Shown: one piece after another, positions 19,952 to 51,027 of the stretch
How positions within the stretch are numbered: the stretch's first letter is position 1
Layout of the letters: each line of letters begins with the position of its first letter
Assembly (NCBI RefSeq): GCF_021155765.1
Contig: NC_060114.1
Coordinates: 17,121,501-17,185,500 of the forward strand
Length of the DNA stretch: 64,000 nt
Reading direction: 5' to 3'
Origin: Diprion similis
Lineage: Eukaryota > Arthropoda > Insecta > Hymenoptera > Diprionidae
The notes under the pieces: model-generated
Seen by the model: only the letters and a program-made list of their open reading frames with translations
What the model was told of the DNA's origin: nothing
Database searches by the model: none
Program-made: the position numbers and the translations under genes

Positions 19952-22900
19952 TTACTCCGGCGTTTTTAATAAAAAGAAATAGCAGAGAGGTCGCAAAATT
20001 GCAGTGATCGTTTGCACACTCCATGATTGACCGATCAGTTTTTGCCGTTTAGTAGCAGAAAGGTTTTTAACATCAGTAAAATGCCTCGGGAAGCCAAAAA
20101 TCGCCTCCAATTCTGTTATCCACAATGAATCAGGCGCTCCGTTCATCAAAACTGGCTTCAAAAGTGATACACCTAGATGTCGTTGACGAAAATGAGTGGA
20201 AATAGAAATAATTAGTAGAAACTTATTAAGGGCGTTGCTGCATGATGGACAATATCAGAGTCTCATTATTATTTACCTTGTTTCAAAGAATTTACTTTGG
20301 TCGTGACCGTTTGTATTTTTTTTACCAAAGCGTGGCGATTGCAATTTGGTGTCAACACGCTTTGCAGATTTTGAGATGGGTCTGGAGGTGGAAAATTTAC
20401 CCCTATTGGAAGATTACTCCAGAACAATCTCGGCCGATGTTGGGGTGAAAAATCTGAGGCATCTATGAGGTACGGTTCACACTTGAGGGACCTTCAAATA
20501 AAAACATCATTATTACCTTGATCTTTCATCCCTGATTAAGCTATTGGTTTGAAGAGGAAATTCAAAAGCTCATCAATCTTACTGATTAATTGCAATTCTG
20601 TATCGACTCTGCATAGAAGCAACATTTTCAAAGAGCCAAAATAAGTGGTGACCTCTGTTAGCTTCAGTGACGAGGTTCTTTATTCGACAGTAGTCGAAAA
20701 AGAGTACTCCAGTTCCGTTCGGATCTGGAAAATGTAAGTAGAATTGCAACTTCGCGCTTTTAAAGTACCTGCATTTTCGAATACGAAAAAACCGTCTGCC
20801 AACAGAAACGTGATCAAAGTAAATGAAACACAACTCACCGTGTAAACCCAATCGGTTTGGATTCGCTAGGCTTAAGTCGTTGCACGGAGAACCGCCGATG
20901 AGTAAATCGATGGGTGCAATCGAGTCTATAACGTCCTGCGTTATATTCCTGACATCACCAAGCCGGTATATTCTGTCCCCAAAATATGCCATGCTGACAG
21001 TTTGCGCATCAGCGTCGATTTCTGCAGCGTAATAACCTTCCACTAATATGCCTAGATTTTCCAACACTAGCAGTCCTGAAAATTTAATTTCAAATATGCA
21101 TTCGCAGATATTCTATTTCTGGTTCGGTGAATCATTTTCGTCAAATGTAAGCTCAATTACCTGTACTGATTCCATCGAACAGCGACAGTACGCGCATTGG
21201 TTTTCTCTCTCTATTATTATTCCACACTTTGTTCCAACTTGTGTCAATATTTTTGTGAAATAGTCGACCCATCCTTGTCTTCCAGTCAGCTCGCGGTTTG
21301 AATATTCGACTTTTCTCTCTGTTGTAAGAGTCGTCACATAAAAAACAGAGCCAGGGATCCTTGAGCAGAATTTCATCATAGTCCGCTGGTGCTATCAGAT
21401 ACTTGAGACACGCGGTACAATAAACTCTGAAAGTATGATATGAAATATTTTGCTCAGCTCGTAAACAATCGAATAATGTTAGACAGCTCACTTACCGAGG
21501 ACAATCATAACTGTCACACATGACGATTGTGTCCGAACCGGCGCACAAAGTGCAGTAGAACTAAAAATTGTTAAGAACAATAAAATTTACATTACATTTT
21601 ATTAATATTCTAGAAAGCATTCATTCGTCGTACTCACGCATTTTCCGTCATCCCCGTAAGCGAATATAGCTGCCTTGAATTCTTCCTGTAATAAAAATTC
21701 TGTATAAATTCTTGTTTACAGTACATGTCAAACAAAGGATAATCAAGAATATTTAGAATCGTTAATAACTGACCAAGCAAGTTGTGCAAAGAACGCAGTT
21801 GAAAAACGGATGTTCCTGTACATTGTTGCAGTGAATTTTTAGACAAATAATGCACAGAACTTCCAGAGTGTCAAGAAGCCCAGCGAGTACAGCTTTCAAA
21901 GCATCTAAAACGTGATTAACGATAAGTTAGATGTTACATTATTTCTGTTCTAAATTGCCGCTCAATCTTTGTCAACTCCAAACGAGATCTTTGCTTTACC
22001 GCAGTCTTCAATTTGGCTTTCACGTTCGGCTGCAACTCCCTGATTTGCTTTCATCTCATTAAGTTTTTCCACAATGTGAGACGAATATCTTGATTCTAAA
22101 GACTCGTCATTTGGCTTAGAAATTATTGGCATTTTCGAATTGGTACTCAAACTTGACACCCAAGCTAAGACATCGTCCATCGTCCATTTCCTCGTATCGT
22201 AAGTGAGACGAGCACAGTGATCCTGAATAAAAATTGGAACCTTCTCAGTCATGCGTGTCAGTGGTAATTGCGTGAAAAATGGTGTTGAATATTTTATGTA
22301 GAACGTTGTAGGCCGGCTAAAACTCCGAAGCATACCTTGCAGGCATTGAGAACAGCGTTCGTGTATACTTGTCTTTTACACTGAGTTATGTAGCTCTTCA
22401 TTTTCTTTATTCCCTCGTCGAATTTCATTACATTCTCATAGTGAACCTGGGAATTTGGATAAAAGAATGTTCAATTTTTTATCTGAAATCTCTACTTGAT
22501 AGTGTTCGAAGAAAAATTCAATGTTCAATTACCTGGGATAACTGATAATCCCCGTACCAGAGGATCCATTGGCACCCAAAGTTGGGTTCCTTTGTTCCAC
22601 AGTCGTGATGATGAACGATCATCGCTGCCGGTGAGGAAATACCAATAAATTCTTAATCAAGTTCTGTCCGAGGTTCTAGAGTGACCAATTGCTGGTTCTG
22701 AAAACCTACCAGGCCACCAACTATGTCCACTGATTTTTCCCCAAACGATGACGCCCGGTTTTTGATCCATCAGTGGCAGTACATGATTTTCTGCAGAATT
22801 GGAAAGCAATTCCTTCGCGGATTTCCGGACCAAGTCTTTGGGAAATTTACTGGATCGTGATCCTGCGTTGAAGAATTGAAGTCTTAGCCGGAGCGAAAAG

Positions 22901-25466
22901 GTGACTTTGGAATAGGGAAGAACGTCAGAAATTCTTAAAAACGCATATTTGATCAGAAAACTTTTCATGCGGTACGCAAGCCACAGAGGATTCGGTAAAT
23001 CAAAAAGTTTAAGGGAGAAGGATTGATAACTTTTACATGGATTGCAGGGTGAGAAGAAAAGCAAAAGATGGTGTGAATAGTATCAAAGAAAAGGAGGACC
23101 ATTATCCTTGAGCTTCTTGTCCAAGCTGTCCCGATTCTCACTGTTTGAAGGACTCGAGTCACTGGGCGATTTCGGCGAACCTGAAATGAACGAAGGCTTG
23201 ACTATTATGTTGATTGAATGGACGCCCTCGACTTTTGACCAAACTCACGTGCTTCTTCTTTACTGCGTTCAATCTTTGCCTTTGCCTTAGTATTTTCCTG
23301 CTTTAACTGGGCCAGCCGTTGTTGTATATACTTTGGAAGTGGACTGCATATTACCTCATTCACTATAAAATATGGTAAAGATATTATCCTTGCGTTTTGG
23401 TTAACCAGATGCTAGTTTATGTGGAAATATAATACTCACGGTGGTTCTTTCCCATCAGATGCTTTTGGACCCAGGCTACGTAAGGTTTGATTAAAGGGAT
23501 GTTCAAACGTTTCGAGAATAGCTATGAACCAAAAAAATAAAAAGTAGCGAAAAACACTAAGTTTTGATTTAACTCAGCAAAATTATAACTGAATGCCTAT
23601 TAGAACTTGCGACAGAAAATTTCACCTTTAAAGTTACGAAACAGGCCTTCTTTCTATCCCTTGGCACTCTTTCGTCTTCCAGATGTCTGAGCAGTCTATT
23701 GTCTAAACTATTTGAAAATGGTTCAACTTGAGTTTTCTCGTTTAGCTGTAACGGGAAATAAAATTTACTTGCATTGTGAATGGAAAAATTTCGTATGGTC
23801 TGTAACTCTGTATGTAATCCAACAATTTTCTTACCAGCGAAATTAGATCCTCGCCTATCCAATAAACACAAACTTTATCCACCTTCGGTTCAATCCCGAC
23901 ATCCTCAGCGGCAACCACTAATGCTAGAAAAAGTCAAGAATACGAAATGTGAAGCAAATTATCTTCGAAGACAAAAGCGTGGAAGGTAACGAAAAACCAA
24001 TCGAGCTGTTTTAAAACCAATTCGAAATATCTCCATAAAATAATGTTCATTTAAAATGCAGGAGGAGGACACCTGTGAAATGCTGCAGTGTTCAAAAGTA
24101 CCTAGGATTCTGTGATACAATGTTCTACAAAGTCCCAGTAAAATGTTTGAAGCTTCAAATAAATTCTAGAAGAAATATCCATGAAATTTCAGTGAAATCC
24201 GTGAACTTCCAGACATCGTTATACCGTGAAATGAATCCGATTGCCAGTAAAATTTGTAATAATTTTATGGACAACCGTGAAGTACGGGGTATTCAAGAAC
24301 CTGATTCATTGGAAGTTCACTGAAACCTCTTGACATCTATGAAATTTTCAAGAAACCCATGAACAATTCTACAAGACATCTATCTCGTGAAACTTTTATT
24401 CCAAGTAAAAAGACGCCATCCTACCAATGGACAAAATGGTCATTGATATCTTACCGGGCCACCAAGCCATGCTGATGCGTCCCCAAACGAATTTGCCGAT
24501 TTGATTGCGTGCGTTTTCCGAGCCAAAGACATTCTCGATGCTCTTAATCAGACTTCGCGTCATCCTGCGACCATTGTGCGAAGTCTGTTCCTTCAGAGAA
24601 GTCTGATGGCCTCTTCTCATCTCTGGAAATTGGGAAATACTGTTCGTTCTTTTATCCTGGATAGATTTCACTTTCGATACATCTGCGGATGGATATTTCT
24701 CTCCCCTTTTGCTCCGGGTCTCCGCGTATCTTTCCTTGGCCGAAGGATACTGTTTGAGTCCATAAGTCAAGAGATTCTGTTCCAAGGATTCCTGACGTTG
24801 ATTACACATCTCTCCGGTCTCGCTCTGCAATGTTCTACGATCTGCATGGCGTCGACCAGTGTAGCTACTCCGAGGACAGTCATCGCGAGTGTTTGATGAA
24901 TTCTTTATCTTATCCTGGCCAGCGTTGGTGGTAACTATGTTACCGTCAAAGGTGTTTTGATTTTCGGAGGATGCTTGCAGCCAGTTTTCGAGATTACGAA
25001 TGATGGCCGATTTGTCGTAGTTCCTGCTCGATGAACCGGAGAAACTTTTCTCGGCAGGTGGTTCTTCCTCCTTGCAGACGAAGCTGTTTTCGGATGAATA
25101 GTAATCGTGGTCGCGGTTGAGGAACCCAACACCGATTTTTTCGCTCCGTTCATCGAATTCATAGTACAACCCTCCGTAATCGGTCTCGTCAACTTTTTCC
25201 AAGACATTTTGACCGGTCTCGTCATCGGACTTTACCCAGGAATTTCCGATATCGGACAACGTGGTTCTTTCTGTTTTGAAAAACGGCTTCTTTGTGTAGA
25301 GGCAATGATCTTCGAGGATACCGGAGTCGTCGATTGATCTTTTGTTGGATGCCACGTTACACTGATCGGATTCCCATTCTGCAAGCGGATAATCTTCACT
25401 CTCGACGAATACATTCGAATAATATTCATCGCTCGACGTTCGGACGATAGTTTCATTCTGGAACAT
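19952..25466 (-). CDS. DNMT3: DNA (cytosine-5)-methyltransferase 3 with two PWWP domains
   Basis: Eighteen coding exons, read downwards: 25466-24455, 23923-23835, 23745-23626, 23521-23440, 23362-23249, 23180-23142, 22862-22710, 22624-22533, 22446-22336, 22222-22000, 21904-21774, 21685-21638, 21560-21496, 21426-21161, 21075-20839, 20724-20583, 20491-20277, and a last exon ending at 19952. Length is about 1,110 residues. A disordered acidic N-terminus (about 1-320) comes first. PWWP-1 follows at about 322-435 (KFVWGRISMAWWP) and PWWP-2 at about 515-604 (GVIVWGKISGHSWWP, WILWYGD). The Cys-rich ADD domain spans about 680-810. The catalytic domain has motif I SLFDGISTG, GGSPCNDLS with catalytic Cys913, FENV at about 959-962 and QHRPR at about 992-996, so it looks active. 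The family methylates unmodified CpG DNA. The junction into the last exon is unresolved (see findings). An acceptor at 25485 leaves the frame open upstream, so a further 5' exon may exist. Confidence 0.93.
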
Positions 25467-26573
25467 ATACGATTGAATCTGAATCTGTAGTCCTTTTCAA
25501 CTTTTGTGAAAACTGTTGGAGGCGTGAAAAATTTTAGACTACAAATTTTTCGTAGTTACTTTTCTAGAAAATGTTTCTTTCGCGCTTTAGGAAGCGCGGA
25601 TTTTCAAACGTATATGTTAACCACGTTGCAGGAGTTGAATTCGATGAAATTTATCGTGAAACTCGATGTCCAGGAGACTAATCGATATCTATTTATCCAG
25701 TGGGGTAAATTCTCGATGGAAACCACTGATGGAAACATTATTCTGTCACATTCATAAGGTTTCAAAGCGACCAACAGATGGCGACAGTTGAAACTAACCT
25801 GATAAAGCAATTTATGATTTGCCGATGAATTGGAATATTTTTGGCGGGATACGAGGCAGTTCCATATGAATTATCGAATCACTACGAAATACACTACAAT
25901 TAGCGTTTCGAAATTGAAATGAAAATACTTCCTCTAACTCATCATGCACTTGTAGAAAATATATTGATCGGTTAGCTATCGATTAGTTATTTTAAACGGC
26001 ATGCGTTTAACAGGAATGAAAATTACTCAAGCATCGGTACCGTGTACCTGTCGAAATGGGTAACGGAAAATTTTTTCCCAGAAACTATAATCAGCCAGAT
26101 ACATGGAAAATTTGGTGATTCGAAAGTGGCATAGAGTGTTTGAAACGGGAAGAAAAAAAGGGAAAGAGAACTTAATTTGCAATAGAACTGATCAATGAAA
26201 TGAGAGCTGTGAAAAGAAGTAGAAGAAAGAAAAAAAAACAAAAAAAACGAAGAAACGAGAAGAAAACGAATGTAGAAGAAGCCTTGAACTATAAGTAATA
26301 GGTTTGATGACCCGTAGGTCAGGTGGTTCACAAAGTTTCCTCGTAACAACTTTCGGCATAAATTGAAAGTTGTTGACAGAGTTTTGTCGAGGGAACGAGG
26401 CGCGGGGCAACCCTCAAGAGTAATTCTTGTGCCTCTGGTTAGTTCGAGCGCTGCTCTACTCCGATGCGGATTGTCTCGAGTGCAGGACTGTCTCATCGTC
26501 GATATATTTTTTTATCGATTTTTTTATATCTTATTTTTTTTTTTTCGAACATTCGAACCTTCGCGACGTCTTT

Positions 26574-26606
<33 letters not shown>

Positions 26607-28029
26607 CAATATCTTTCATATCCCATGCAACAGGCAAAAATCACTTCAGCCACAGGTATAAATTCTTCCAGCATGAACATGGGGTAAAAAAAAAACAAAT
26701 GTGCAAAATATTTCGTCAAATGTTTCTGATATGTAATCAAGCTCTGTAATTATATTATTATCCTACAGAGATTAGGTTATCAAAATCAGTAGACGATATG
26801 AACATATTCCGTATTCGGTATGTATGTACATAATTATTCATCCGGAAATTAGTTCGCTTTATCAACATTCTACAACATCCTCTTTATGATGAAGTGAGAT
26901 AGAGTTCTCTGAGACTAATACAGGAAAAATACGTATATGTGCCATTATTATATCAGCATCCACACGAAGGCAGATATAATGCATATATTTATATGAATAT
27001 AATGTATACGTGTGTACATCTCTATCCTGTGATCCAGGATATCCAGGACTTGATTCTTACATACAAGACCCAGGAAAATCGGTGAACCGCAATTTTGTCG
27101 TCCACCCATGGTAACTCGTCCTGGTATACTTGTGTAATTAAAGTCAGGAACAGCTTCAACAATTATTATAGGTCGTGTCGTACGAAAAGACTTTATTTGC
27201 GAAATTCACAACAAATGTTTTATTTCGATTCACGTCATGTTTTATTTCTATACAAAAACCTACTCATACAGTTATTTATAGAAATTACGTAATACATGAT
27301 GGTCATTGAATTGCATAAATTTCGTATAATTTCTTACACTTTTTGTCTTTAGATAGTTGTTAATTTAATGAATCCAGTTTTAGAAATATGACAACAAGAA
27401 GAAAGAAAAGAAAAAAAAAATAACAGAGATTTCTTGTTAGTTTCCTGATCACCCTGTATCTTTTCTTTCGCTCGCGTATATTTGTAGAGTTTTTTTTTCA
27501 TATCTTTGTAACCAGCTGTCTCTGTGGTAAGTTCATTGATTCGTTGATTGACTCGTCGATTGGTTTCAGGCACCTTCATTCTTCTTCCCCCATTCATTCG
27601 AATAGCAAGTGTACTAGTACAGCAGGCATAACTAAGCAACGATGGTTATTTATTGGATAAAAATAAGAGATGTAAAACAACCGATCTCCGAATGGACTGG
27701 GGCGGGGGGGGGGGGGTGCAGGAATCTTCCTCAGCCAGTACGGGAGATAAAGATAGAGATAGACAGAGACCGATAATCGAGAAGAGAATAGTGTGTAAAT
27801 GAAGAAATACGGATAAGAGCGAACCGGGCATGCACACAGAGGTGCTCGGAAAATGAACGCGAGTAAGGCTTACACGCGGGTTCACAAACGCCAGGTTGGA
27901 TAGATGATAGGAGTGTGTGTGCGCGTGTTGACGAAGGAAAGGCGACGGGAGAAAGCGAGAAAGAGAAAAAGAGAGAGAGAGAGCGTGAGCAGCGCGTGTA
28001 CGTATACATACACGAGAATAGAGAGGTAA
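25467..28029. other. DNMT3 5' flank and DNMT3-TDG spacer
   Basis: No plus-strand gene is supported. The right part of this stretch (27.3-27.9 kb) holds purine-rich low-complexity DNA, and a 13-base G run lies at 27704-27716. The DNMT3 promoter must lie in or beyond the first several hundred bases, but I see no diagnostic core element. Open frames near 26.0-26.5 kb are built from GAAA-rich simple sequence and are not credible. Confidence 0.5.
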
Positions 28030-28947
28030 TAGATGCGAGAGAGTGTGAGACTCGCTGATGAGGAAGAGAGAAGAACGAGGGATGAAGCGGGCGCGAAAAG
28101 AGGAAGAGAAGAGCTCTCCGTGCTTCTACCCTATGCAAAGAAGCGGAGGCAGCTCGCAGGAGAAGCAGGAGAAGCAGGAGGAGCAGCAGCAGCAGCAGCA
28201 GCAGCAGGTTTGCGCTGCGCAGCGGTTTGCATGCATGTACAGGTCGAGCTGGTCGCGCGCAATGGCGCACACAGCCGAACGAACCGTTGGCAAACGCCAA
28301 ACGGGGATGGGACGTCAGGGGTGGTAGAAAAGAGAGAGAGAGAGAGAGAGAGAGAAGAAGGGGTGGGAAGGGGCGACGGTCTCCTAGTCTTTCTTGTATT
28401 CTATTGATTTTTCCCCGTGGAAGTTTTGCCGGCGGGGCGGAGGGGGGGGGGGGGAAGAGAGAGGGAGGGTGAGTGGATGGGTGGGAAATGGTGGCGGCCG
28501 CGGCTGCGACGGTGGAACCGGCAGCGGGAACGTCGACGACGAGGACGACGACGACGACGATGACGGCGATACTCACCGGTTATGCGCCGCGCAGGCCGCA
28601 GGCCGCCGAATAGAAGTAGTAGCGTGCACAACCGCTGCGCATAGGCTGGCTCTGGTTGTTGGCCCGCGATTGCGAGGAGCGGAGCTGAGCTGAGCTGAAC
28701 TGAGCTGAGCTGCCTGCCTGCCTGCCTGCCTGCCTGCCGACGAACCGCGCGAGGAGGAAACGGCTTACGTTTACGCTTACGGCCAGCTAGCGAGCCAGCG
28801 AGCCGGCGGCGGCAGGGAGGACCGGAGAGGAGAGGAGAGGTGTGGAGAGGAGAACCTCTCTCTATGTTGGGAGGTCTCTCTCGAAACGGTTGCGCGCGCA
28901 GCGACGCGCACACACCCAGAGGCCTGAACCTACGTCGTGAACCTACA

Positions 28948-28979
<32 letters not shown>

Positions 28980-29220
28980 GCGCTCCCGACGCGACCGTAA
29001 AGCTACACAATCCTCCACCACCACCACAGCACACTACCACCACACCATCACCACCACCACCACCACCACCACGCCATCGCCGCCGCCATCACCGTCACAC
29101 CAGTCACCGACCGACACAAACGCACACCGCGCCAGCACCGTCCTCAGTAAGAGAGAAGGTCTCTGTGAACAGCAGCGACGGGGCAGGCACAGCGCACATT
29201 TGCACTCGTGGTAAAAGCGA
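28030..29220 (+). promoter_or_regulatory. GC-rich, CpG-containing island, probable TDG promoter/leader
   Basis: Against an AT-rich background this 1.2 kb is strongly GC-rich and CpG-containing. It is dense in tandem short units: GCA at 28183-28206, GA at 28333-28354, a GACGAC run near 28536-28561, GAGCTGAGCT near 28677-28710, TGCC at 28711-28737, ACG near 28949-28976 and CAC near 29050-29072. The placement 2.4-3.6 kb before the TDG start codon suits a promoter with a long leader. Transcript evidence is needed to place the start site. Long frames through it are simple-repeat artefacts. Confidence 0.45.
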
Positions 29221-31640
29221 ACATGGTTGCCAAGAACAAGTTTAACCCGTGTATTATTATATAGTTATAAATTAAATATACCTCGCTACTCGGTGTGTTA
29301 AATACAAAGCTGGATATATCTGTTGGTTATTGTTGTTGTTGTTATTATTGTTGTTAATTCGTTTTACTTTCTTTTTAAACCATATTTCAATTATTCTTCG
29401 ACGCAAGTTTAATCACACAAGTCACGACCGACGGTTCGCGCGAGATGGGGAAAAGTGATGTTTTTCATGTGACAAAATAATTGTTTTCCTTGCTGTTTTT
29501 TTTTTTTTTTTTTTTTTTTTTAATCTCCTTCTCGTTTCCGTTTTGTTTGTTTGTTTTTCCTTTAAATTTTCATTTCGTTATATTTTCTTTCTCTTTCTTG
29601 TGTGTGTGTGTGTTTTTAATTATTTTTTTTTCTTTTCTTTCTCTAAACACTTTTACACAAACGTTATACCATCATCGAATTGCTTAAAATTATTTATATA
29701 AGATAATACTGTGCGGATTTCGCTATCTTTCTCGGGTGCTAACTTCGAGTTGTTCTCGGGGTTTGGATTATGTAGAGGATTCACCGTTCTATATATATAC
29801 AAAATTCGTGTATATATATATACATACATACATACATACTCATACACACATATATATATATATATATATATATTCGTGTGGGTGTTTCTCTCCGTGTGTG
29901 TACATATACATTATACACGTATGCGTACTCTATGCGTGTATGGACGTCGGAGGGTATGAGCTCTGCTGCTGGTGCTGAACATGTACAGAGGAAAGAAGGT
30001 GGTGTTGTACTCGTTCTATAACTATAGTTTGTGTAAGACGTTAGTGGTGGTGGTGGTGGTGCAGAACACGGTCTCGCAGATCTTGTAGGCGTTGTGACGA
30101 GGTTATCTGTCCAGTTAGCTCGGGAGAAGAAAACTTCTTGATCCCCCTCGTCGTTTTCGTACAAGACGATACATCGCCGCGGTACAAGAAGTTTAAGAAG
30201 GTATAATACATATATACTATACACCTCATAGAGCTGCATTGGCGGCTCTTGGTAAGGACACACTTCTTCTTCTTTCACGGGGAAAAATAAAGAAAGAAGA
30301 AGAAGAAGAAGAAGAAGAACAGAGAAGAAAAAAGAAAGAAAGAAAAAAAAACAACAACAACAAAAAACGAAGTAAATACAAGAAGGGAAAAAGATCAGAA
30401 GGCAGAAGTGTACACCTATACCAAGCTCTTACGCTTCTCCGAGGAACAAGAAGCAAAAGAACAAAGAAAAAAGCTGAGAGATAAAAAAAAATATCGAAAA
30501 AAAAAAAAGAACTGAAAGTTAAACCGAAAAAGGAGAAAAAAAAATCACACAAACACACACACAGACACACACGTACACACACACTCGTATAAGTCAGGAA
30601 ACTAGATTCACACAAGCCCACGTTGACCATCTACGAGTTCGCCACAGCGAGCGATATTGTGTGCATACAGTTCGTGATAAGAAAGGATTATAACGACGTT
30701 TACGGCTGGTATGTGCGTGTCTGCTGCTGCTGCTGCTGTGTGTGTACGGAAAGTTTGTTGCGCGCAAAAATAGGAGGCATATCTTCTGTGACTACCGTCT
30801 TTAGTCTACCTAACGATAAGCTGCGGTGCAGCAAACATACCCACACAGAGATAGAGAGAGTGAGTTTGGTTGCGCTAAAAAAAAATTCTACAAAAGTTAT
30901 TACTCCTCACTGATATCTGGAGGTTCTTTGCCGAGCTCGTGCGCTGCACAATACAACAGCTGAACCTTGAGTGGTGTGAAAATATGACCGTAGTAGGTAG
31001 GTACTGCTGCTGCTGCACGGTGGTGACGAGGATTGAGTAACACTTGATATTCACATCGAGTTTTTAACTCACTCAGTGTGTTTCTCTCTGGTTTCGTCAA
31101 GTTTATATATATATATATATATATACAGTATATACTCAGGAAGTGAGACAGGGATTAATAAATGTTAACGGTATTACATACAACAATTAATAAACCGTGT
31201 CAGTGTGTGTTTAAAAAAGGAGGAAGTTAATTTCGAGTTAAACGTAACTTGTACAATCAATGTAATAGTAATATTGATGATAATAATAAGTGGTGGAATG
31301 TAAATCGGTGTTTGGTGGATGTCGGAGTACATATTTCGGTGAATCGAGATAAGTTAATAACAAAAAAAAAAAAAAAAAAAACTAAATAAATAATAGTGAA
31401 GCGGTGTCGGGGGATCTGTTCAATCATGAATATAATAAAACTCTAGCCTTCTGGGGCGGTAAATCCAAACCCTGGAACAAACACCCCCGTATGGTGAGAA
31501 AGGAAAGGGGTATTGATGTGGTCTCTTTTCGCATTAACAAGTGACCACTGAGTGGTCGAAGACCAGGGAAAAGAGGGAGGGATAAAGTAGAGGATAAGAT
31601 ATAGTGAAAACGAGAAGAGGGCGAAAGAAGGGAAGGAAAA
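29221..31640 (+). other. probable TDG leader region, low complexity
   Basis: This stretch holds T tracts, a TA/ATAC stretch at 29.79-29.87 kb, a GAA-rich run near 30290-30330, an A-rich block at 30.3-30.5 kb, TGC units near 30722-30740 and a TA run near 31106-31125. No open frame is credible. Part of it is probably transcribed as 5' UTR or upstream introns of TDG, but I cannot place exons. Confidence 0.4.
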
Positions 31641-34600
31641 ATGCAGGTTGCAACACTGTTCAGGGAAAGTGCTACCCTTTTGGGAGCATCGAGTTTAGAT
31701 CCACCCCAACAGACTCATCACCAACCCATGCAACAGCAGCACCAACATCAGCAGGTCCAACAACAACAGCAACAACAACAACAACAACAGCAGCAGCAGC
31801 AACAGCATGCCGACTTGCACCTTGGACATAATCATCACATGCAGCACCATTACAAAATGTAAGTTTATCTCATTGTCAAACGATATATTTCTTCATTGTC
31901 GTCGTCGACTCCATTTTTGTTGAACAATCGACTAATCACCATTATCGATAGTAAGTACGTATGCATCGTTATCCGACGGTGTTGCGAAGTACGGTGTGTA
32001 TTTTTTTTTCCATTGCGCAAGAAAGAGAAAGGAGGGACAAAGTGGTATTTTGTATATCGAAAAAATCAGAAAGAAAAAAAGAAAAATTGAGTATCCTCGA
32101 TTTTCGAAAGACGTTACAATTTGCTGCAAAAACCCTTTCTTTGAAATATTCCTTGTATTTTTAGTCATTGTCGTATGAATACGTGGTATACGTGCGTAAT
32201 GGGAAAAAAGTTATGCGCTTGCGTGACTCACACACTCTTAAAACTTCACCTGTCTTCCTTCGCTTCGCATGCATCACATTTTTTCACCGAGGTTAAGAAC
32301 TCTGACCCGATGAATATGTTGATTTGCGTTAGATCGGCGACAGGTGAAAAGTTTCGAAACGCCGATTCCATTAGCTCATAGCTATTGTGTAAGAGTTGAT
32401 CGTGAAAGAAAAAATGTTCGTCTTCTTTTGCTTTCCAAATTTTCCAACCTTTTTATCCCCCCCCCCCCCCCCCCCTCCCCCTCTCATTCTTTCCTCTACA
32501 ATTTAAACTTTGATCCAATCACTATTTAGTCATTTTTTATTAATTATATTCTATATACTACAGACAGTATAAACCTAATGTTGATTTGTGTGAACAAACG
32601 TTGACGACATTTTATCCATTTCCTGACATCTGGATTTTCCGCAGCACTGTTATAAGTTATAAGTAAGAAATTAATACTCGTGATAAGAGGTTTCGTATTC
32701 AATTTCAAGCGTACGCGTATCTAACATACGTTATATATCTATACTCGCCATTATCCTGTACATGTGTTACACATATACCCGCCATCATCCACATGCATGA
32801 GTGAATTCAGTGGCAAGTGAGATAAATTATCATTGGATATACCATCGCCTATAAATACATGCAACATACGTGCGAATAAAGACAATGATATAAGGTAATC
32901 GATGACAAAACATGACCTTCTTTCCGCCTACTTTATGTGCGGAAAGCTGTAGGTATAAAAGAAAGTAAAATAAAACTGAAATTAACCAGAAAAAGGGAAG
33001 TTAGCAAACTTTTTTCTTGCATCATTAACAGAGACAAAAGTAGGAAGTAAAAGTTTGAAACTCGCGCCAAAACTTGGGATCGTATGTATACATATACACG
33101 TATATGTATACGAATGAGAAATGAGGCTCCGACCTTGGATCAACTTTTTCTGGGTGAAAGGGTACGATTCAGTTTACTCGGAGCGAAACTTTTTCGGTGC
33201 TATATATATATATATGTGCGAGTTTTTGTTACACCGTTAATCTTATCGATGTTAAAGTCCGATCTTAATAGTTACTTCTTTCAGTTTTGCTGGTAGAAGC
33301 TTATTTCCCAACTTTCTATTTACGTTTTTTTTTTTTTTTTTTTTTTTAATATTTGTGTGTGAATAGTAAAGGTTATCGTCCCGGTTATATATATATGTAT
33401 GTATTGCATACTTGAAATTAATTTGCAATATTTTTTCTCGCAGTATGTTCATAACATTCATTCATCACGCTTGCACTTTGGGAGTTAATTTGAGAATGTA
33501 TTAACTGACTATATAGCCCGCCGCATACATTCCACGCAGAAATGTATGTACGTTAAATTCCAGGCAATGATAAGTAACATGTGATAAGCAGTCCATAATT
33601 AGGGGACGAAACAAGAGTCGGCAGACCGTCAGACTGAGTTTGACAATGTCGTTGAAACACTCCGTCATGTTAGTTCAGGGTAACGAAGCGTGTACGAAAT
33701 ATGTTTCTGTGCTACTAACGTTTTTCAATTTACAATTCAAGAACAACGATCATTTGAGTGTTGAATACGTGAAGTATGTTCAGAGCCGAGTAAAACGATA
33801 CGTCACAAGGTATTTTTCGACGTACTCGATCGTAAGATATTGCGGTTTGAAGTCGGACGGCGCAGCGCTAATTGCTGCGCATTCTTGAGCCGACGACGGA
33901 TACCCACCGTTGCATTTCGGGACTCTTGAAACGAAATGACGTGTTCATGGGTATCGTTGAACTCGGCTTAACGTCCTCTTTGCGATTTTTCCAACGAAAT
34001 AGTCGTAACTAAAAGTTGAAATTTCGCACTTCTTGTGTAACGCTTATTAAAAAAAAAAAAAAAGGAAAAATCTGATATCGAAGCTGATTGCGGGACCGCG
34101 ATAAAAAAAAACTCTTTATATTCGTGGATAGTATATGAATGCTCACGTTAAATCGAAACAAAAAATAGAACAGACAAAAAATGAGCGATTGGGCAAGATG
34201 ATGCCACAGGTCGGGGTTCCGGATTCTGAGTTTACAGTTTGTTAGTAGTTGGATGAAAACTCGGTCAAAGTCTTGACGCCGCCGTCGCGAAGCTACTACC
34301 TCCTACAACTCTCTGGGATTCACTGCTTGCTACTGCTGCAGGGTCGCCTGGCTGAATGCCTCCTATGAGTTGGCTGGCTCGGGGAGTAAAAGATATCTCG
34401 TAATTCTCCCTCGCAAACTTTCATCCTTCTCCTCTTCCTCCCCTTCCTCCTCCTCCTCCAAGAGCTCCCTGTCTTAAATGGCATTATCAAAGGGGAATCG
34501 CTTGCGTAGAAAATATACTTTGTATAAGAGTGAGAAAAAACAGCGAGAGAGCGACAGAGAGAGATAGGCAGGGATGAGCGGACGAAGCGGAGCGTTAAAA

Positions 34601-35677: not shown

Positions 35678-35711
<34 letters not shown>

Positions 35712-36877: not shown

Positions 36878-36953
<76 letters not shown>

Positions 36954-38653: not shown

Positions 38654-38699
<46 letters not shown>

Positions 38700-38739
38700 T
38701 ATATATATCGTAATACATATTGGCGCGCGTGCGACTTGG

Positions 38740-38784
<45 letters not shown>

Positions 38785-39163
38785 GGTGTATGTATATACA
38801 TATATAAATGTCTTTCCCTGTGTGCGAAGAGTTTTCTGGGGGTCTCCCTTAGCAACAAGCAGCCCCTGCCGGATTAACTGATGGCTACAAGTCCCCATGG
38901 CGTAAAAAAATACACGTGCAAGAAAAGGGATGAATTGTGAATTTGAAGTAAACGTTACTTTGTTTTTTTTTCCTGTTTTTTTTTTTTTTTTTTGATCTTG
39001 TTTGTCTATTTTTATTGCTATTGTTGTTGTTATTATTGTTATTTTACTTTTTTTTTTCACTCAGGTTTACACTTTGCGTTCGACAAAATTATCTCCCCCA
39101 TCGTAGTACGTTATACGTCTTGCGTTATTACTACTGTTATTCCGTAAAGGGTTCATTCTATTG

Positions 39164-39194
<31 letters not shown>

Positions 39195-40413: not shown

Positions 40414-40476
<63 letters not shown>

Positions 40477-40556
40477 GTAAACACTACGAGGCATGTAAGA
40501 GTATATACACATATACATAGCGGTGTGTGTGGGCTCTCGCGTATATATAGTATATG

Positions 40557-40618
<62 letters not shown>

Positions 40619-40836
40619 CGCTCGGGTATACTATACAAAGTATACTCCATGTCAAAATATAGGGGGAAGAGAGAGAGGGGGGGGGGGGGGGGGGAGGGGG
40701 CTTTTGGTTTGCCTTACCTTGGTTATATACACCTGGTGTTGGTGTTGCTGCTGCTGCTGCTGCTGCTGCTGCGCCGTTGTCAATGAGTATTCCCTGATTT
40801 ATGATTTTTTTTTCCTTCATTTTTCGTTTCTGGGGT

Positions 40837-40868
<32 letters not shown>

Positions 40869-41645
40869 GTGGTTCTTCAATTCGTTCTACTCATTTTCAT
40901 AGGATAGTTGGTAGAAGTAATAACGATCGGAGATTTCGACGTGTTGCGGTACACTAGATTCGTGTAGTGAGATCTTTTGTTTTTTCTCGGCGACGGGGGA
41001 AGACAATCAACAAGACTTTTATCTTATTTGTACAGGTTAGGTTAGTCGGTGATACAGGTGGCGTCAAATTTTGTGGCGAATATCGGCGACGGTTATTTAT
41101 GGAGGAATATACAGTTAATGAAAAATAAAAGAACGATATAGAGTCATGGGATGGAGTATAAATGATGGTTTTTTACCATGTTGAAGTTAGTAACGTTATC
41201 GTAAAGATTCGTGATGAGGAAAAACCGTTACTTCGTGGTTTTGGGACTTTTTGAAATTCACTAAAGCGCGGTAAAACAAGACATACTCATATTCTGAAAT
41301 ATTCGATACTTAAGAGTCATTGTAAACATACGTTACGATAACGTTATTAACTTCAATCTCGTGTCTTTTCTGTTCTACGTGAAATTGAATGAAAGTACAA
41401 GCGCAGTTGCCGTGCAGGTGATATCGCACAAAAATGAAACAAAATCTTGCAAAATAATTCTTTTTTGTATCCGTTAGGCGGTTTTGAGATGGTATAAATA
41501 ATGATAGATAGTTTAAGAAAAAATTTGCACGGATTTTCGTCATACCTCTTAAAACGTTTATATGTAAGAATGAAAAAACACGAATTACGTTAATAAACTG
41601 GTTGACGAAAGGAAATTGGTGTACTTATTGACAATGGATAGAAGA

Positions 41646-41676
<31 letters not shown>

Positions 41677-44600
41677 CTTGTTTAACGGAAAATGAAGAGG
41701 ACAAGCTTCAAGATTTTTGCTTAACAGTTATTATGTTATTATATAGGAATTTTATACTTTATATTATTTACTCATTGTTAGTGATTAATGAAAGTATAAA
41801 TGATAAGGAATACGGACACTGGTGGATAATTGATGAACGACCGACTGACAGCGTTAATGAGACCGTCTAGTTGATCATTTTTTTAAACCGAGGGAGAACC
41901 CTTCGTTTATGTTTATCTATACACTACGTCCCTTTTATTGACGTTTAAAATCCTGTACAAGGGGGGATATTCAGTCAAGATAAGCCAACGATTCTATTCG
42001 CACTTTATTGATGAATGAGTAACGAGGATAAAATTCGGCCAACTTGCAGGGTCGTAAACGCGTGTAAATCATACCGTGCAAAATCATCTTATACTTCGAT
42101 ATCTCGAGTGAAAAAAATTTGAAAAAGTTTGGACAGATGTTGGTGGTAATAGAAGAGGGATGAATTCTCATTAAAGTAAAGAATGCTTCTTTTTCTTTCG
42201 AGTTGATTGATGAATAGTTACAGTAGCATCAAAGTGGGACTTATTTTTCCCTAACAAGCATCCGCGGTGACTAATAATATAATCATCATACCGGTATCAG
42301 GAAATTGAATTTGTTTTGACGGTTTATTTCTCCGGAATTTCTCCAATAATTAGCGTCAATTTACTTTTAGTAATTCAAATACCTGTTTCGTAGAGGTCAA
42401 CTCTCCATCAGTCCTTTGCTTCTGTTCCATTTTCGCAATCTTGTGTCATTCGCTTATTCCTGAAACATAAGATTTAAGATAGTTCAATAGCGTGCTAGTA
42501 CCAGTAGATACAACATTACGGAAATTTGAAATATGCAGAAAAAATCTTTAATTGCAAAATTCACCAATTATAGATTTCCGTACCAGTTAAGTTTAAATTT
42601 TTATGTATTTATAGTCACAATAGATGTTGTTGGACTGGCACTGGCCTCTGATCTCTAGAAACCTTTAATACTCTTAAGCCATATGACGGCTGGACTGACT
42701 GACGTTGTACACGGATCATAGAAAAGCCAAGACCCTTAATTGAATATAGTCGGAATTATGTGGGTTTTTGCTCTCAACACATTTAGGTATCTTTTTGCTC
42801 TACTTAATCTCTTGTGTATTTATGCAATAAAGAACTAATGTTTTTTTCACACGACGCAGAATTGTTTCAGACATTTTATTAACTAAAGTGATATCTGTTT
42901 CAGGTCATATCCCTCTCCGGTTCAAAATGGAGTTCCTAATGGTCAGACGATGAATTGCTCAAACACACAAGGTTCGTACCAAGAAAACGCAGTGGGGTAA
43001 TTTCAGTAGTTAAAGAAGGTTGTCAGATCCTTGACAACAAAGAATTCAGCATTGACGGTTTTCCTCGTTGAATGTTAAAACTGGAGGTTAGCAACCACAG
43101 AAGCAAACTCGCATCCGCTGAAAGATTCCTTGAACTTAATTGCGTTATAAATAGAAACGATGATAAAGCTATGGAAATATATTTACAAGAAAATAAACAG
43201 GAATAATCGAGTCATTAGGGTTTTTCTAGTAGTAATGATTCATCGATTTACTTATTTCAGGTGGAATTATGGTGAAGCAGGAAGCTAGGGACGATGGCTA
43301 CGAAACAAGCCCGGATCTCGAACTCAGGAGTACGGGTGGCGACAGTAGTCAACAATATCATACACCCCTAACACCACACACACCGCACACACCTCACACA
43401 CCTCACACACCGCTCACACCGATGTCAGCGACATCTCAACAGCCAGGTAGCAACACAACGAATCTCAATCAGGTGGGTTTCAAGTTGCAAGTAATTATTA
43501 CTTCCAAATGTTGATAAGTTCACTCCCTGCAGGTTTGTTTGAGCAGGAAACAAAAAAAAAAAGAAACCAAACTAATCAATGTACGATTGCTAATCGCAGG
43601 TCACAATCAAATGCGAAACACCTGTCGATCCGTACTCATTTGTGGATGAGGAAATGTCGATGGGAGGCGGTATGAGAGCGGCGAGTAGTCCAGGCAGCAA
43701 TCAGGAAAGTATGACGTGTCCTGGCGGAGCTCAATCTAGAACGCCGTCGACGCCTCCTGGTCACCTGCAGAACCATTCGCCTGGCAATATCTCGAGTCAG
43801 CTTCAGATGAGCCTCGCCATGAATGGGACGAATCCTCAATTACCTCACCAACCCAAGAAACGAGGCAGGAAGAAGAAGTCAGAAATGATACTGACGCCAG
43901 AGGAGTAAGAATCTTCTTTTTTGACCATAAATAAGACAATGTTGAAGTAGGAGTCTTTCTCGGTTTTACTTCTTTGTCTGATTAAAATAAATTTAGTAAA
44001 TAAAAAAATTGTTTCTGTTTCTTTGAAAGTCATTGTATTTACAGAGCCGAACTGGCAGAGGCCAAGAAACGGGCGAAGACTTACAAGGAGCGAAAAAAGC
44101 ACGACAGATTTGATGGGATGCCGGAAGAGGAAGTTAGTAAACGAGTGCTGCCGGATCACCTGACGAGTAATCTTGACATTATTATAGTAAGTTTTGATGA
44201 TTACTCGGTGGTTAACTGTTGGTTCATTGAGCGTATATTGATAGGGATGAAACAATTCTCTGTTGACAATTGTTAAGTTACATGCGTGTAGAAAAATGAT
44301 ACACACAAAAGTTGGATGAATCATTAAAGTGGATGGCAACATTTGTCAACAGGGAAAAATAACCACATGAAAAATGGAACATCATTATCATATTTGAAGA
44401 TTGTAATGAGTTGGAGGTAGAAGAACGTTTCCCTTGAATTAGTCGGACAGATTGAAAATCAAGCCCAACTGTTATATTTGAATCATTTCCTTTCAGTTAA
44501 ATAAGAATACGGATTGTATAGTCCTTAGCAGCTTCTTCTGCCTCTAACAACGACTCTCTAAATATTTGATTCCTGAGATTAATTGAAAACTTTTAGCAGC

Positions 44601-46224
44601 GTCAAGTTGTCGGATCAACAGATTTTTATCACATATTTCTTTCAACGTTTATATAAGTTCAAGCTGTAGCTATGAGTGAGCCAGTGATTAGTACAGATCA
44701 GAATATAGCTGAAATGATGGTTGAGTAACACCGGCTTCGATCGTCAAGTTATTGCGAGTCCTGAGAGGATACTGGATGGGATGCGGAATAATACAGAAAG
44801 ATAAGGAGCATTAGACTATTCGAGAAGCATAACACCTGCGATTGGAGTTCGTGATACAGCATCTAGTGACTTGAAGAAACCAGAAATCTGTGTTGAAGCT
44901 GATACCAAGACAGGAGATAATCCTCCAAGAAGAAGTACATGTTTGGTCAAACATGACGTCGAATACAACAAAAAAGGGAATTAAAAAGCTCTGCCAGCAT
45001 CATCAAAATGATTTCTTTTGCATGAAAAGTAACTTTGTTATTATTATATGCCTGCGATGAATAGACTTCTTCGTAAATCTATCACTAGTTTACATATCTA
45101 TAATTATTTCTGCATTGGTTTCGGTCATCTCTTCATACAGCGATACTTTTTATTTTATTTTCATTATCCTCCTCGATGCATGATTCGTTTTTTTTTTCCC
45201 TATGTTTAATTCTAGCGTTCAGTTATTTGAGACGATGTGTCTATGTTTGAAATAATTTGTGGTAGAAAAAGTAATACAAGAGAATATTTTTTTTTTTTAT
45301 TTGGGGCAAATTTGGATCAGACGTTCGGTGGTCAAGAAACATGTATAATGCAGATTATAATGGACTCGAATATCTTTTGGTTTTTCAACAATCGTGACTC
45401 ATGATGTGAAAAAAAAAAAAAAAAAAAAAAATTATTTTGAGAATTAAAAATTCATCTAGATAATTTCAAGCAGCTCATATTTTTATGTTATAGATTGGCA
45501 TCAATCCAGGATTGTTTGCCGCTTACAAAGGGCATCATTACGCGGGACCTGGAAATCATTTCTGTAAGTAACAATTAAATTTCAAAATTTACTATCAAAA
45601 TTTTCCTTACCCAAAAACAAACGTTAAATGTAATTAGTGATTATAATTTTGTTAATTACATGTTGGTTAAAAGTAATTTCAAAAGGCAAATGAAAAGGAG
45701 ACTAATTGTTACAAGAAAAAATTAAATAAATGACGTTTAAATCAGAGGGTTCAAGATGAAAGATCGTTTGTATATTTACTTTATTCTAACATCGTGATGA
45801 TATAGAAAATCGATAAACCCAAAGAAAACATAAGAAGGTAAAAAATAAAGATTAAACAACAAGTAACAAAGTAAATAAATAAACTATATAGAAACGACTG
45901 TACAGAGTAACAAGACGGTAAGGGTGGGAATGGGAAGAGGGGAGAGGGAATGAGGGAGCAGAGGAGAGACGTGAGCGGGAAAAACGGGGGGCAGGGAGGC
46001 AGGGAGGGAGGGAGGGAGGGAGTTCAGGCAGGGGGAACGAGGAAAAGGCCAGAGAACGACGGGAGGGTGGAAAATGTGGGTGGAATGAAGAGGTGTGGGT
46101 GAGTTCATGTCCCACGCCTATCCGTTCAATAGCAGCTTTAGTCCAGCGCTCTTCTCTCTCTTTCGCTCTATCCTTCTCTCTGGCTCTCCCTTTTTGTCTC
46201 TCTCTCTTTATTTTTTACTCTGTG

Positions 46225-46282
<58 letters not shown>

Positions 46283-49200
46283 TTTCATCTCTCGCCCCTT
46301 TCATCCCTAATTTCTCACTGTCCCGACGTATTCTTTTTCTTTCTTTACAAACATGTATATTTTTAATAGACCTCGCGTCACGTGTATTTTAATGGACTTT
46401 TCTTTTTCGTTCATTCGGTTCCACCTCCGCTGACATCCTGTTTCCTTCTTTTAATTTACAATTAAATGCATCGCGCCGACGGCGATTATTACGCGCATTA
46501 AAAATAGTTCGGAAAACAGATTAATGGCGGATAATTATGCCATCTCTCATACGGCGTGCGTACGTATCTATAATATACTTACGTGTGTACGTATGTATGT
46601 ATGTATGTATGTATGTATGTATGTATGTATGTATGTATGTACGTATGTATGTATGTATGTACGTCGTACGTACGGTACGCGCTTCGTCCTACTTTTTAGC
46701 TCGATCGATTATATCCCACACGTTGTTCGTTTTCCTTCTCGTATGCCACGAGGTAATCTTTCGTTAACGAAAATAGAATAATAATGTGATTAATAGTATT
46801 ATTCTCATCATCATCATCATCATCATCATCATTATAGTCATGATTTTTCAATGCATTTGACCAAAATGGTTATAGAAATGATAATGTCTATGCAGTGTGC
46901 CTGATTGGCTAAGCTAACGGATCGATATCATTCGAATTTCGAATGTGATATTCTGGCATTTTTTTTTACAACAAACGGTTCGATGGCGAAAACATTAATT
47001 CACTTATTTTCTCTCCTATATCTATACGCGCAATATGCGTATCGTGTGTCGATATTATTTCTATACGACTACTTTCCATGACTCTGCAATTTGATGATAC
47101 GTTTTTTCTCTTATTATCGCCCCTTTTACGACGCGTGAAAGTAGTGTTAACGGTTTTTTCGGTTTTCGTTTGTAGGCGCTACGAATCTCCCTTAGCAAAT
47201 AATTCTACATCAATAAGATGCGTTTACGTCGCAATGAAAAGATCGTCGATGGGTCGCAAGTAATTTATCAAGACTGTGACTTCTTTCAGGGAAATGTCTT
47301 CATCTGAGCGGTTTAACGCCCGAACCTCTTACAGCCGATGACGATTACAAATTGTTACGGCTTGGAATAGGATTTACTAATATGGTGGCACGAGCGACCA
47401 AAGGAAGCGCCGATCTCACGCGGAAAGAAATAAAGGAAGGTCAGTGAAATTTTCATAATTTTTGCCATTTATTACCAGAATCTGTTTCGTTTTGTTTTTT
47501 TTCCATAGCAGCCGTCTCTGGTTCTCGTGGAACTTTCAAGTAAATTCGAGACAAAGCGATCTTATCATTCGTTATAACGTAATGTAACTACACATACTTT
47601 TGATCTGTGTTTAGGAAATTTCCGAAGAAGGGCGAAAACAATCGAACAAAGCTAGATTTATCCGCGCGAGAATTACTAGATTTGTTGGTTATGGTGTTGT
47701 TCTTTTGTTCGAATGGCGTAGATTAATCAGACCGTTTGATCTATCACATGGAATGAAAGAGACAAAAGTTACGTTATTTCGATGTGTACTTACCCACGGG
47801 AGGTTAATCGAGGAAAATACTCGATGATTTCTCAATCGCGTTGGTGTGACAATTCACAATTTTACACCGGCACAATAATGACTTTCTTCATTAGTTACTT
47901 TGATTTTTGATCAACGATATTCTAACCTACATGGCTTCTCGGACCACGCTGTATGCCTAAACGGCACAGAAAATACTTATCCAGTTTTAAACTCGGCATT
48001 GGCCAATAGTTACATTTCATTCATATGATCACTTCAAGTCCGACACAAAGAATATGGCGATCAACCTAAACTCACATGTGTAGGCACATCACAGACGTAG
48101 TGCGGCACAACACACTAGTGTGTTTTTTGTTGTATTTTTTCCCTTCGGCAATGACGTAATTGACCCTGTACGCGACAAAATCCTCGTATTATTTTGCCGC
48201 CGTTCAACTTGTGTCATAGTTCAGGCGATTGAGAAACGCTCCTGATTGGTTCGTTGAAAATGTATCCATGCGAAATCCATCTACGTGTTATTTTTACACT
48301 CTATGGCTTATGCGTTCGCGCGCCAACGTTCGATTCTTTGATCGAAGCTATTGAAACACGGGATGCGAATTCAAATCTATTATTTATGCATGGAATAATT
48401 ATCACAAAGAACTTGAATACGATATTCTTTGATTATCTAATTTTATTTACGTTATAAACTTTTAAATAATAATTATTAGCTTCAGTTTTAAGAAGAAAAA
48501 ATTTGTGTCAACGTTTTCCTTATCTCGTGAAGATTAAAAATTATTCTAGATTTTTTCGTACCTGTTCGAAATAAACTGGCATTTATACATGTTTTTAAAA
48601 ATGTTTCAGGAAGTCACGTGTTACTTGAAAAATTACAAAAGTATAAACCCAAAATAGCCGTATTCAACGGTAAATTGATCTACGAAGTATTTTCTGGAAA
48701 AAAAGAATTCGGATTTGGCAGGCAACCGACTCTCGTCGATGGAACTAATACGGTAAAGTTAAATTAATGAAAAATAAAAATATGAACAAATGAATAAAAC
48801 AAAGTACCCAAAACAGAAGGAAATTAGACCAAAAGTTGAAAAGTTTTGTTACACATTTTTTTGAATGATATTCGCATTTTTTCTCATTCTTTTAATTTTA
48901 AAATTGTGTTTCAAAGTGAGGTATTCCAACTGACTTTCATACTTTATTTTACAGCACATGTGGGTCATGCCGTCGAGTAGTGCGAGGTGTGCACAGCTAC
49001 CACGAGCGGCGGATAAAGTTCCATATTACGCGGCATTGAAGAAGTTCCGTGATTATTTGAATGGTGCAATAAGCCACCTTGAGGAATCGGACATAGTTTT
49101 CGCCGATTCGAAACTGAAGAAAAAGGAAGCGGAACCAGTCGAGGACAGGAAGCCGATATTCGATAACGAATTTACACCGGACAGCGAAAACCAGATAACA

Positions 49201-51027
49201 GATTTGAGCAGCACGATGCAGATAAAACAAGAACCGGGCACGGGTGTGGTACCGGGTAAAAAAAAGCGGGGAAGACCAAAGAAGATAAAGAGTATCGAAG
49301 AACAGCCCGCGCCAGACCCAGAGAAGCTTGATGCCAACGGTGAAGTGATAAAGAAACGGCGTGGTAGACCGAAGAAAATACATCAACAACAGAAGCAGCA
49401 ACAGCAGCAGCAGCAGCAACAGCAGCAACAGCAAATGGAAAGTGACAGCAGGGAGCGAGAGACCCAGCAGCAACATCATCATCAGCATCAACAGCAACAG
49501 CAGCAGCAACAGCAACAACAACAGCAGCAGCAGCAGCAGCAACAACAACAACAACAACAACAACAACAGCAACAACATCAAACTCTCAGCAATCATCATA
49601 ACGAAAACTATTCGAATTCCGTGCCAAACTGTTTTTCACCACCGATAATGTCGCCGCCAAACAGTTTTCCCCATATGGCACCTTACCCGTCGATGGGGGA
49701 TTCGGGATTCTTCGGTCAGGGTATGAACGACAGTCCGTACAACATAAGTGCGAAGCAGAGCCCTGTCCACATGCATCATTACAGCCAGAGTCCAAAGTCC
49801 ATGTCGCTATCGTTCACCCACTCCGACTTGTCATCGGAGATAAACACGGCGATATCGTCGGAGAACAACCTCGAACCGTCCCCCCTGACATCGCCGAGCG
49901 TTGAACACCCGGACTTTGAGCCCCCGACCAGCATCGCCCAGCAAAATATGACCGGCGATCACAGATCGTACAACCCGGGCAGCGGCGACAACAACGGCCA
50001 CCACAGCAGCCCCGGAACCCCCTCACACTCGAGCTACAACAGTTACATGGGGTACCACGACCGACAGCCGGAATCCCACAACACCCATCCGCACCAGACG
50101 ACGCCGACGCCGTTGAGCCAGCAGGGTTCCGGCAACGACGAGCACTCTCACCACTCTCATCAGACGCCCCCTCACACGCATCCGCACACACCTACGCACC
50201 CGGCGATGTCGCCGCACTCCCACGAGCAGTACAACACGGTGAAGAGGAGCAACACGAATGGCGCCAGCGGCCAGGACGTCTCGTCGAAGAGTCTCAGCGA
50301 TCTTGAGTCACTTGTCGACCAGATACCGAGCATAGCGGACGGCGGTAACCAGCGTCACCCATCGCAGAGCGTCATGAGCGACGAGTCCCTGGCGGAGAAG
50401 ATGGACACCCATCACCAGGCCTCGTACCTACCAAGTTTCACGCCATCCAGCATGTCGAATTACAGTCCGCCACCCGCGCCGCCTCACGCCGGACTTTATC
50501 CCGGTTCCCTCCATCATTCGCCGGCGGACAACTACGGCTCGTTGTACGGAATGAACAACCGGCATCACCCGGAGACCCAACAGCACAGCAAGTCTTATAC
50601 CGTGGAAAATTTAACCTCGAACAGTTACAGCTCGAGCATGAACCACCCTCATCCGGGTAATTCGTATCCCAACATTATACCCGGACCCCATTATCCCGTC
50701 CCGATGGGATCCACGAACGGATACCTCTTCGGCGGACTCGACCCTAGCCTGATGCAACGCACTTACGGCATGGGCGGCATGGGCGGGATGGGCGGGATGG
50801 GCGGAATGCATCCCTCTCTAGGACCCATGGCCAATCCCTATCCCTACAACGGGTCGTACACCAGCTCCTTTGACGCTTACCCACCTTCCCACGCCGGGAT
50901 TCACGCGCCTAGCGCCAACTATCCGGGCTATCCTGGCGGCGGTGGACCCGGTCCCGGGAGCTCCGCGACTTCCTACCTTTCGTCACATCACAGGCCGCCC
51001 GTTGATCTCGCCTACGACGCTGTATGA
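31641..51027 (+). CDS. TDG: G/T mismatch-specific thymine DNA glycosylase, long insect form (TDG/Thd1)
   Basis: Nine coding exons: 31641-31858, 42904-42971, 43261-43472, 43600-43904, 44045-44186, 45494-45563, 47290-47439, 48610-48752 and 48955-51027. All are GT/AG and the phases close to 1,126 residues (human TDG has 410). The N-terminus has a poly-Gln tract, a run of TP dipeptides (130-149) and an AT-hook-like KKRGRKKK. The glycosylase core begins at about residue 265: [15 protein letters not shown] holds Asn319, equivalent to catalytic Asn140 of human TDG, and [10 protein letters not shown] holds Arg447, equivalent to the inserting Arg275. After the core come a sumoylation motif IKQE (526-529), two AT-hooks (KKRGRPKK at about 539 and KRRGRPKK at about 570), a poly-Gln/His tract and a low-complexity tail rich in His, Pro, Ser and Gly. 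TDG starts base excision repair of T opposite G and, in vertebrates, of oxidised 5-methylcytosine. Confidence 0.95.
33888..33968 (+). repeat. 81-nt hairpin in TDG intron 1
   Basis: The outer arms (AGCCGA...GATACCCA at the left, TGGGTATC...TCGGCT at the right) and the inner arms (CATTTCG / CGAAATG) pair in register, with small internal loops and a 13-base terminal loop. The shape resembles a microRNA precursor, but it is equally what a tiny foldback transposon leaves. I recognise no known microRNA seed. Confidence 0.45.
34768..36050. repeat. long imperfect inverted repeat (arms about 430 bp, loop about 430 bp)
   Basis: The left arm (about 34768-35190) is the reverse complement of the right arm (about 35618-36050) over its whole length. 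Anchors, from outside in, pair in order: GTGG-CCAAA, TTTCGAT, ACATGTTT, TCGATT-AG, ACGTTTGAAATT, TTCTGAAAATTTC, ACTCGATATAT, ATAGAGGTCG, TAGTGTACTTTAGA, CTGTAAATAGAAAT, a T-rich tract, GAAGT, ACATCT and CACGAGACAC. Identity is highest in the middle of the arms. Transcribed as part of TDG intron 1, it would fold into a hairpin hundreds of base pairs long. No protein is encoded. It may be a foldback transposon or two opposed copies of one element. Confidence 0.75.
36881..36946. repeat. (CT)n microsatellite
   Basis: About 33 CT dinucleotides run in tandem. Read on the other strand it is a GA run, the kind bound by GAGA-type factors in insects. Similar runs lie at 46229-46278 and 51381-51420 in and just after the same gene. 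Confidence 0.9.
37952..37975 (+). repeat. 24-base poly-G run
   Basis: An uninterrupted homopolymer of G lies inside TDG intron 1. Other G or C runs of 13-19 bases occur at 27704-27716, 32457-32475 and 40677-40694. The exact length is prone to sequencing error. Confidence 0.85.
40417..40615. repeat. two long (TA)n microsatellites
   Basis: TA runs at about 40417-40475 and 40564-40615 flank about 90 bases of mixed sequence. Each run is self-complementary, and the two could also pair with each other. Apparent open frames of Tyr/Ile repeats through them are artefacts. Confidence 0.9.
43359..43421 (+). repeat. in-frame CACACACC-type minisatellite coding the TP run of TDG
   Basis: Nine-base-scale units encode His-Thr-Pro or Leu-Thr-Pro, giving seven TP dipeptides. 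Proline-directed kinases recognise such TP sites, so the stretch is a potential phosphorylation cluster. It lies N-terminal to the catalytic core. Confidence 0.7.
46229..46278. repeat. (CT)n microsatellite in TDG intron 6
   Basis: About 25 CT units sit in intron 6 (45564-47289). A purine-rich stretch with GGGA repeats (45.93-46.03 kb) precedes it. Confidence 0.9.
46590..46660. repeat. (GTAT)n microsatellite in TDG intron 6
   Basis: About 17 GTAT tetranucleotides, with two GTAC interruptions, form a nearly perfect array. Confidence 0.9.
49384..49580 (+). repeat. interrupted CAG/CAA tract encoding poly-Gln in TDG
   Basis: Two CAG/CAA blocks, split by a His- and Glu-containing linker, encode long Gln stretches just after the second AT-hook. 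CAA interruptions are frequent, which normally stabilises length. The minus-strand poly-Leu frame over the same bases is a shadow. Confidence 0.9.

Follow-up and report, generated by a model that had tools for sequence, protein, structure and literature searches.

The genome of Diprion similis carries the genes for DNMT3 and TDG as immediate neighbours in head-to-head orientation, an arrangement that is probably a passively inherited gene order, with each gene under its own promoter and no regulatory role attached to the proximity. Within the window (the whole stretch of 64,000 nucleotides that was analysed, C10:17121501-17185500), the structure of both genes, their domains, catalytic residues and orientation, and the spacing of their start codons are observed directly, the start of TDG being a likely one. 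The features are as follows.

16348..19485 (approximate), plus strand: NOL9 polynucleotide kinase, convergent with DNMT3; Pfam Cupin_NOL9 and CLP1_P
19952..25466, minus strand: DNMT3, 1119 aa encoded in 18 exons; no Pfam match in the N-terminal part, then PWWP 1, PWWP 2, ADD, methyltransferase
25467..31640: spacer between the start codons, 6,174 bp, with no recognised gene
31641..31858, plus strand: Q-rich exon with which the TDG coding sequence probably begins, ATG at 31641; putatively attached to TDG
42904..42941 (38 nt) or 42904..42971 (68 nt), plus strand: probable small TDG exon, absent from the list of the sequence-only reading
43261..51027, plus strand: main body of TDG, seven exons in one frame (43261-43472, 43600-43904, 44045-44186, 45494-45563, 47290-47439, 48610-48752, 48955-51027); glycosylase domain and long Q/H/P/S-rich tail
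58806..60241 (approximate), plus strand: PSMD6/RPN7 proteasome subunit, the next recognised gene past TDG; Pfam RPN7, PDB PSMD6 5.9e-49

The coding sequence of DNMT3 runs from the ATG at 25466 to the stop at 19952, its 18 exons joining into a single open frame with GT-AG borders at all 17 introns. Pfam recognizes PWWP in two stretches (4.6e-18), DNMT3_ADD_GATA1-like (1.8e-12; ADD_DNMT3 itself matches at 0.0022, under its own cut-off) and, in the C-terminal domain, DNA_methylase (3.5e-17), while the top PDB match of the protein is DNMT3A (2.3e-108), spanning the ADD domain through to residue 1113. The methyltransferase domain of DNMT3 is marked by PCN, ENV and RxR motifs; here PCN, ENV and RPR are intact and align to DNMT3A via GGSPCNDLS, LFENV and HRPRLFW. 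A search of the 269 Mb assembly (60 contigs) with the ADD-methyltransferase part returned seven matches, all seven inside this locus. Judged by these features, the gene encodes a de novo cytosine methyltransferase, predicted to be active. The two PWWP domains fall at 22533-24600 of the window. Bombus terrestris DNMT3 is reported to have two PWWP domains, a PHD and a methyltransferase domain (PMC5799256), the same layout as found here; the portion of that account consulted is silent on neighbouring genes.

The TDG protein matches the Pfam family UDG (6.3e-19), and sequence comparison of its glycosylase domain with PDB entries favours TDG (1.6e-72) over MUG-type G/U glycosylases (3.1e-20). In the PDB alignment the catalytic Asn of GINPG and the flipped-base residues are identical to human A145, H151, N157 and N191. 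The sequence is that of a mismatch and oxidised-cytosine glycosylase of base-excision repair, which would be enzymatically active. The glycosylase domain of the window TDG aligns to almost all of the construct in the solved TDG structures (14-221 of 227; PDB 5ff8, 2rba and others), with segments that include MPSSSARC retained; unlike those structures, the window protein carries a long Q/H/P/S-rich C-terminal tail. Past the glycosylase domain this tail exceeds 600 aa, and the last exon of TDG contains long polyglutamine/histidine runs at 49390-49580. The earlier identification of intact multi-exon neighbours, made from the letters alone, is thus borne out: the frames are open over 1119 aa and 1116/1126 aa, DNMT3 lies on the minus and TDG on the plus strand, and the PDB matches agree with both enzyme names.

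What could account for the adjacency of these two genes? The distance from the DNMT3 ATG at 25466 to the TDG ATG at 31641 is 6,175 bp, a value which is likely rather than certain because the start at 31641 depends on accepting the small exon at 42904. Bidirectional promoter pairs, whose head-to-head orientation DNMT3 and TDG share, are by the usual definition those with transcription starts no more than about 1 kb apart, whereas 6,175 bp separate the start codons here. Passive order is favoured by this spacing: ARI1 (RING and IBR domains; ATG 12261) and a helix-turn-helix gene (ATG 14202), the only further divergent pair of the window whose distance was determined, are 1,941 bp apart, and the DNMT3-TDG spacer is rather long to act as a promoter common to both genes.

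The statement that no gene lies between the two agrees with the Pfam scan, in which none of the 29 spacer ORFs of at least 80 aa (29/29 scanned) reached a family cut-off, a scan that a short-exon or non-coding gene would escape. Two of these ORFs gave sub-cut-off matches, to Mucin and DUF7546, and an Rfam scan of the window returned no RNA match over threshold. Tandem repeats form 14 rows in the spacer and cover 496 of its 6,174 bp. The stretch at 28.0-29.0 kb has a GC content of 0.61, with tandem arrays taking up 209 of the 1,000 bp, and may belong to the promoter of DNMT3 or of TDG.

Passive order is also favoured by the scatter of the other toolkit genes, which are unclustered: DNMT2 is on contig C3 (PDB DNMT2 5.7e-86), TET on C2, SRA matches on C8 and C4, a second TDG on C6, and DNMT1 on C10 at a distance of 7.5 Mb from DNMT3-TDG (PDB DNMT1 1.9e-58). 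The SRA (UHRF1-type) domain matches are at C8:6776981-6777415 and C4:18863954-18864564, and one of two on C4 is interrupted by stops, perhaps by an intron. The second TDG is a separate gene:

C6:8180275-8180865 and beyond (ORF at locus 1306-2664): second TDG, intronless, open frame of 452 aa, 430 aa from the first Met

It shares 57% identity with the window TDG across 196 glycosylase-domain positions and 39% when low-complexity tails are aligned as well (357 positions), and its top PDB match is TDG (1.4e-41). In the segment around human His151 it differs from the window TDG, reading GINPSLTAAYRGRYY, with Tyr in place of the His. Being intronless and diverged, the gene looks like an old retrocopy, and since its frame has stayed open it is probably a working one. 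The genome search with PF03167 returned only this intronless copy and missed the exon-split window TDG, so further UDG-family genes are possible. For any knock-down of TDG in the Diprion similis lineage it follows that one copy may compensate for the other.

Against passive order stands the low probability of such a placement by chance, approximately 1.3-2 in 10,000 for adjacency of one named pair and about 0.4-0.6% for any adjacent pair among eight toolkit genes, with 10,000-15,000 genes and a set of eight assumed and the pair picked post hoc. We do not find this compelling, because the pair was chosen after the window had been read. The placement of DNMT1, DNMT3 and TDG on one chromosome-size contig (C10) also speaks against passive order. 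With passive order as the preferred reading, separate promoters and the absence of a role for the adjacency are most likely: DNMT3 and TDG, which point away from each other, would most likely have a promoter each, and their proximity would most likely be inherited, possibly as part of an old linkage block that includes a projectin (bent)-like gene. In the established demethylation pathway TDG acts after TET, and where demethylation is concerned the TDG of Diprion similis would likewise act downstream of TET. The proposed opposition of a methylation writer and an eraser was right as to the identities, but TDG is not itself a 5mC eraser, acting after a TET whose gene is on C2.

The old linkage block is a special case of passive order which we regard as plausible, if somewhat short of probable. 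DNMT3, TDG and the projectin-like gene would all descend from one ancestral insect linkage block, the third member being the following gene:

about 81000-149000 in window coordinates, plus strand: projectin (bent)-like titin/twitchin-type Ig/FN3 gene, about 30 kb past TDG

Its ORFs were read by eye, and the one stretch tested, of 950 aa, matches fn3, I-set and titin/twitchin. Apart from the presence of this gene about 30 kb past TDG, the idea draws on the honey bee, where, in the parts of the sources covered, DNMT3 is GB55485, an Ig/FN3 protein GB55483, an NHERF1-like protein GB55482 and a calcium-channel D subunit GB55480. The numbers of the first two are near-consecutive, and if GB numbers follow gene position, DNMT3 and projectin would be close in bees too; we take the numbers as a hint of an old neighbourhood. 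That number order equals position is, however, an assumption. Besides, a single number (GB55484) intervenes in the bee, whereas both TDG and PSMD6 intervene here, and the gene similar to GB55480, found by a calcium-channel IQ match, lies on C10 at a distance of 5.3 Mb, with another such match on C6. When the genome was searched with EBP50_C for a gene of the NHERF type, no match was obtained; having no working control, the search is uninformative. In Drosophila, according to the source portions consulted, bent is on the fourth chromosome, which speaks for the block. It is flanked there by ey, whereas, against the block, none of the 14 Pax-domain matches in our genome lies on C10. Thd1, the Drosophila TDG, is presumably also on the fourth chromosome, a placement for which a literature search gave no confirmation.

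The spacing itself hangs on where TDG begins. Exon 31641-31858 ends at the donor AAT/gtaagt with two bases left over and exon 43261 requires one, so the two are out of phase and permit no direct in-frame joining. Scanning the intron of about 11.4 kb for an exon matching both phases yielded nine candidates, of which 42904-42941 scores highest (17.0, or 16.7 with the acceptor of exon 43261 excluded from the training set). Its insertion restores the frame and gives a protein of 1116 aa, or of 1126 aa with the 68-nt form that ends at 42971; both donors (42941 and 42971), 30 nt apart, preserve the frame, and alternative splicing between them is possible. When the intron was imitated by 60 first-order Markov copies, six of them contained a candidate of at least 16.5; an equal or better small exon occurred in one of six other stretch-strand combinations (at 17.8), and the reverse strand of the intron itself peaks at 14.3. 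As control sequences sometimes score equally, the splice signals are moderate evidence for the small exon. A start at ATG 31641 is likely, and the spacing of about 6.2 kb given by the sequence-only reading then holds. It would give way to 17.8 kb if TDG started at ATG 43269, the Q-rich exon at 31641 belonging to another transcript or being non-coding. We consider this alternative unlikely. It gains from the barred direct junction, from the control sequences that matched the small exon and from the context of ATG 43269, where -3 is A and +4 is G; it has against it that the small exon ranked first among the nine candidates and keeps the frame with either donor.

Less probable still is that selection couples the two genes, by means of regulatory elements in the spacer (25.5-31.6 kb) that would be common to both and keep the writer and the repair enzyme in balance. 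Such coupling would fit with functionally related genes adjoining each other and with the GC-rich stretch at 28-29 kb, in which tandem arrays account for so little of the sequence. In the part of the source consulted, human TDG is described as binding DNMT3A and inhibiting it, with a cut in DNMT3A activity of roughly half (PMC7948466), and a selected link between such partners is in that light not absurd. Yet the spacer is long, the second TDG is unlinked, and Drosophila is described, again in a source consulted in part, as possessing TDG (Thd1) while DNMT1 and DNMT3 are absent (PMC9584883). Retention of Thd1 without these methyltransferases shows that co-inheritance of DNMT3 and TDG, one of the meanings first suggested for their proximity, is not general. 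It is very improbable that the pair would form a selected hymenopteran head-to-head module, co-regulated through the spacer, with TDG protein directly braking DNMT3 and the pair setting methylation dose, in which case the intronless TDG on C6 would serve repair alone.

The first interpretation is thus right in part: it stands for identities and arrangement, while the meaning suggested for the adjacency finds no support in the tests that were possible. In the literature searched, which was covered in part and leaves subscription journals outside, the order of DNMT3 and TDG in insect genomes is the subject of no listed title or abstract, which is not proof of absence. As it stands, the adjacency is a tidy and checkable fact of gene order. 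Should the order prove conserved, it would provide a natural handle on how methylation is written and removed in balance in insects, and the loss of DNMT3 could be dated at this locus.

Passive order is, finally, favoured by CpG o/e, which does not single out DNMT3 and TDG: it is 1.08 for the DNMT3 CDS, 1.07 for the TDG CDS, 1.07 for the ARI1 region, 1.21 for the spacer and 1.28 for the window. As a trace of common germline methylation the ratio was set aside, DNMT3 and TDG not being separated from their neighbours. The NOL9 region (16001-20000) has the higher values of about 1.6-1.8 per kb, against 1.28 for the window.
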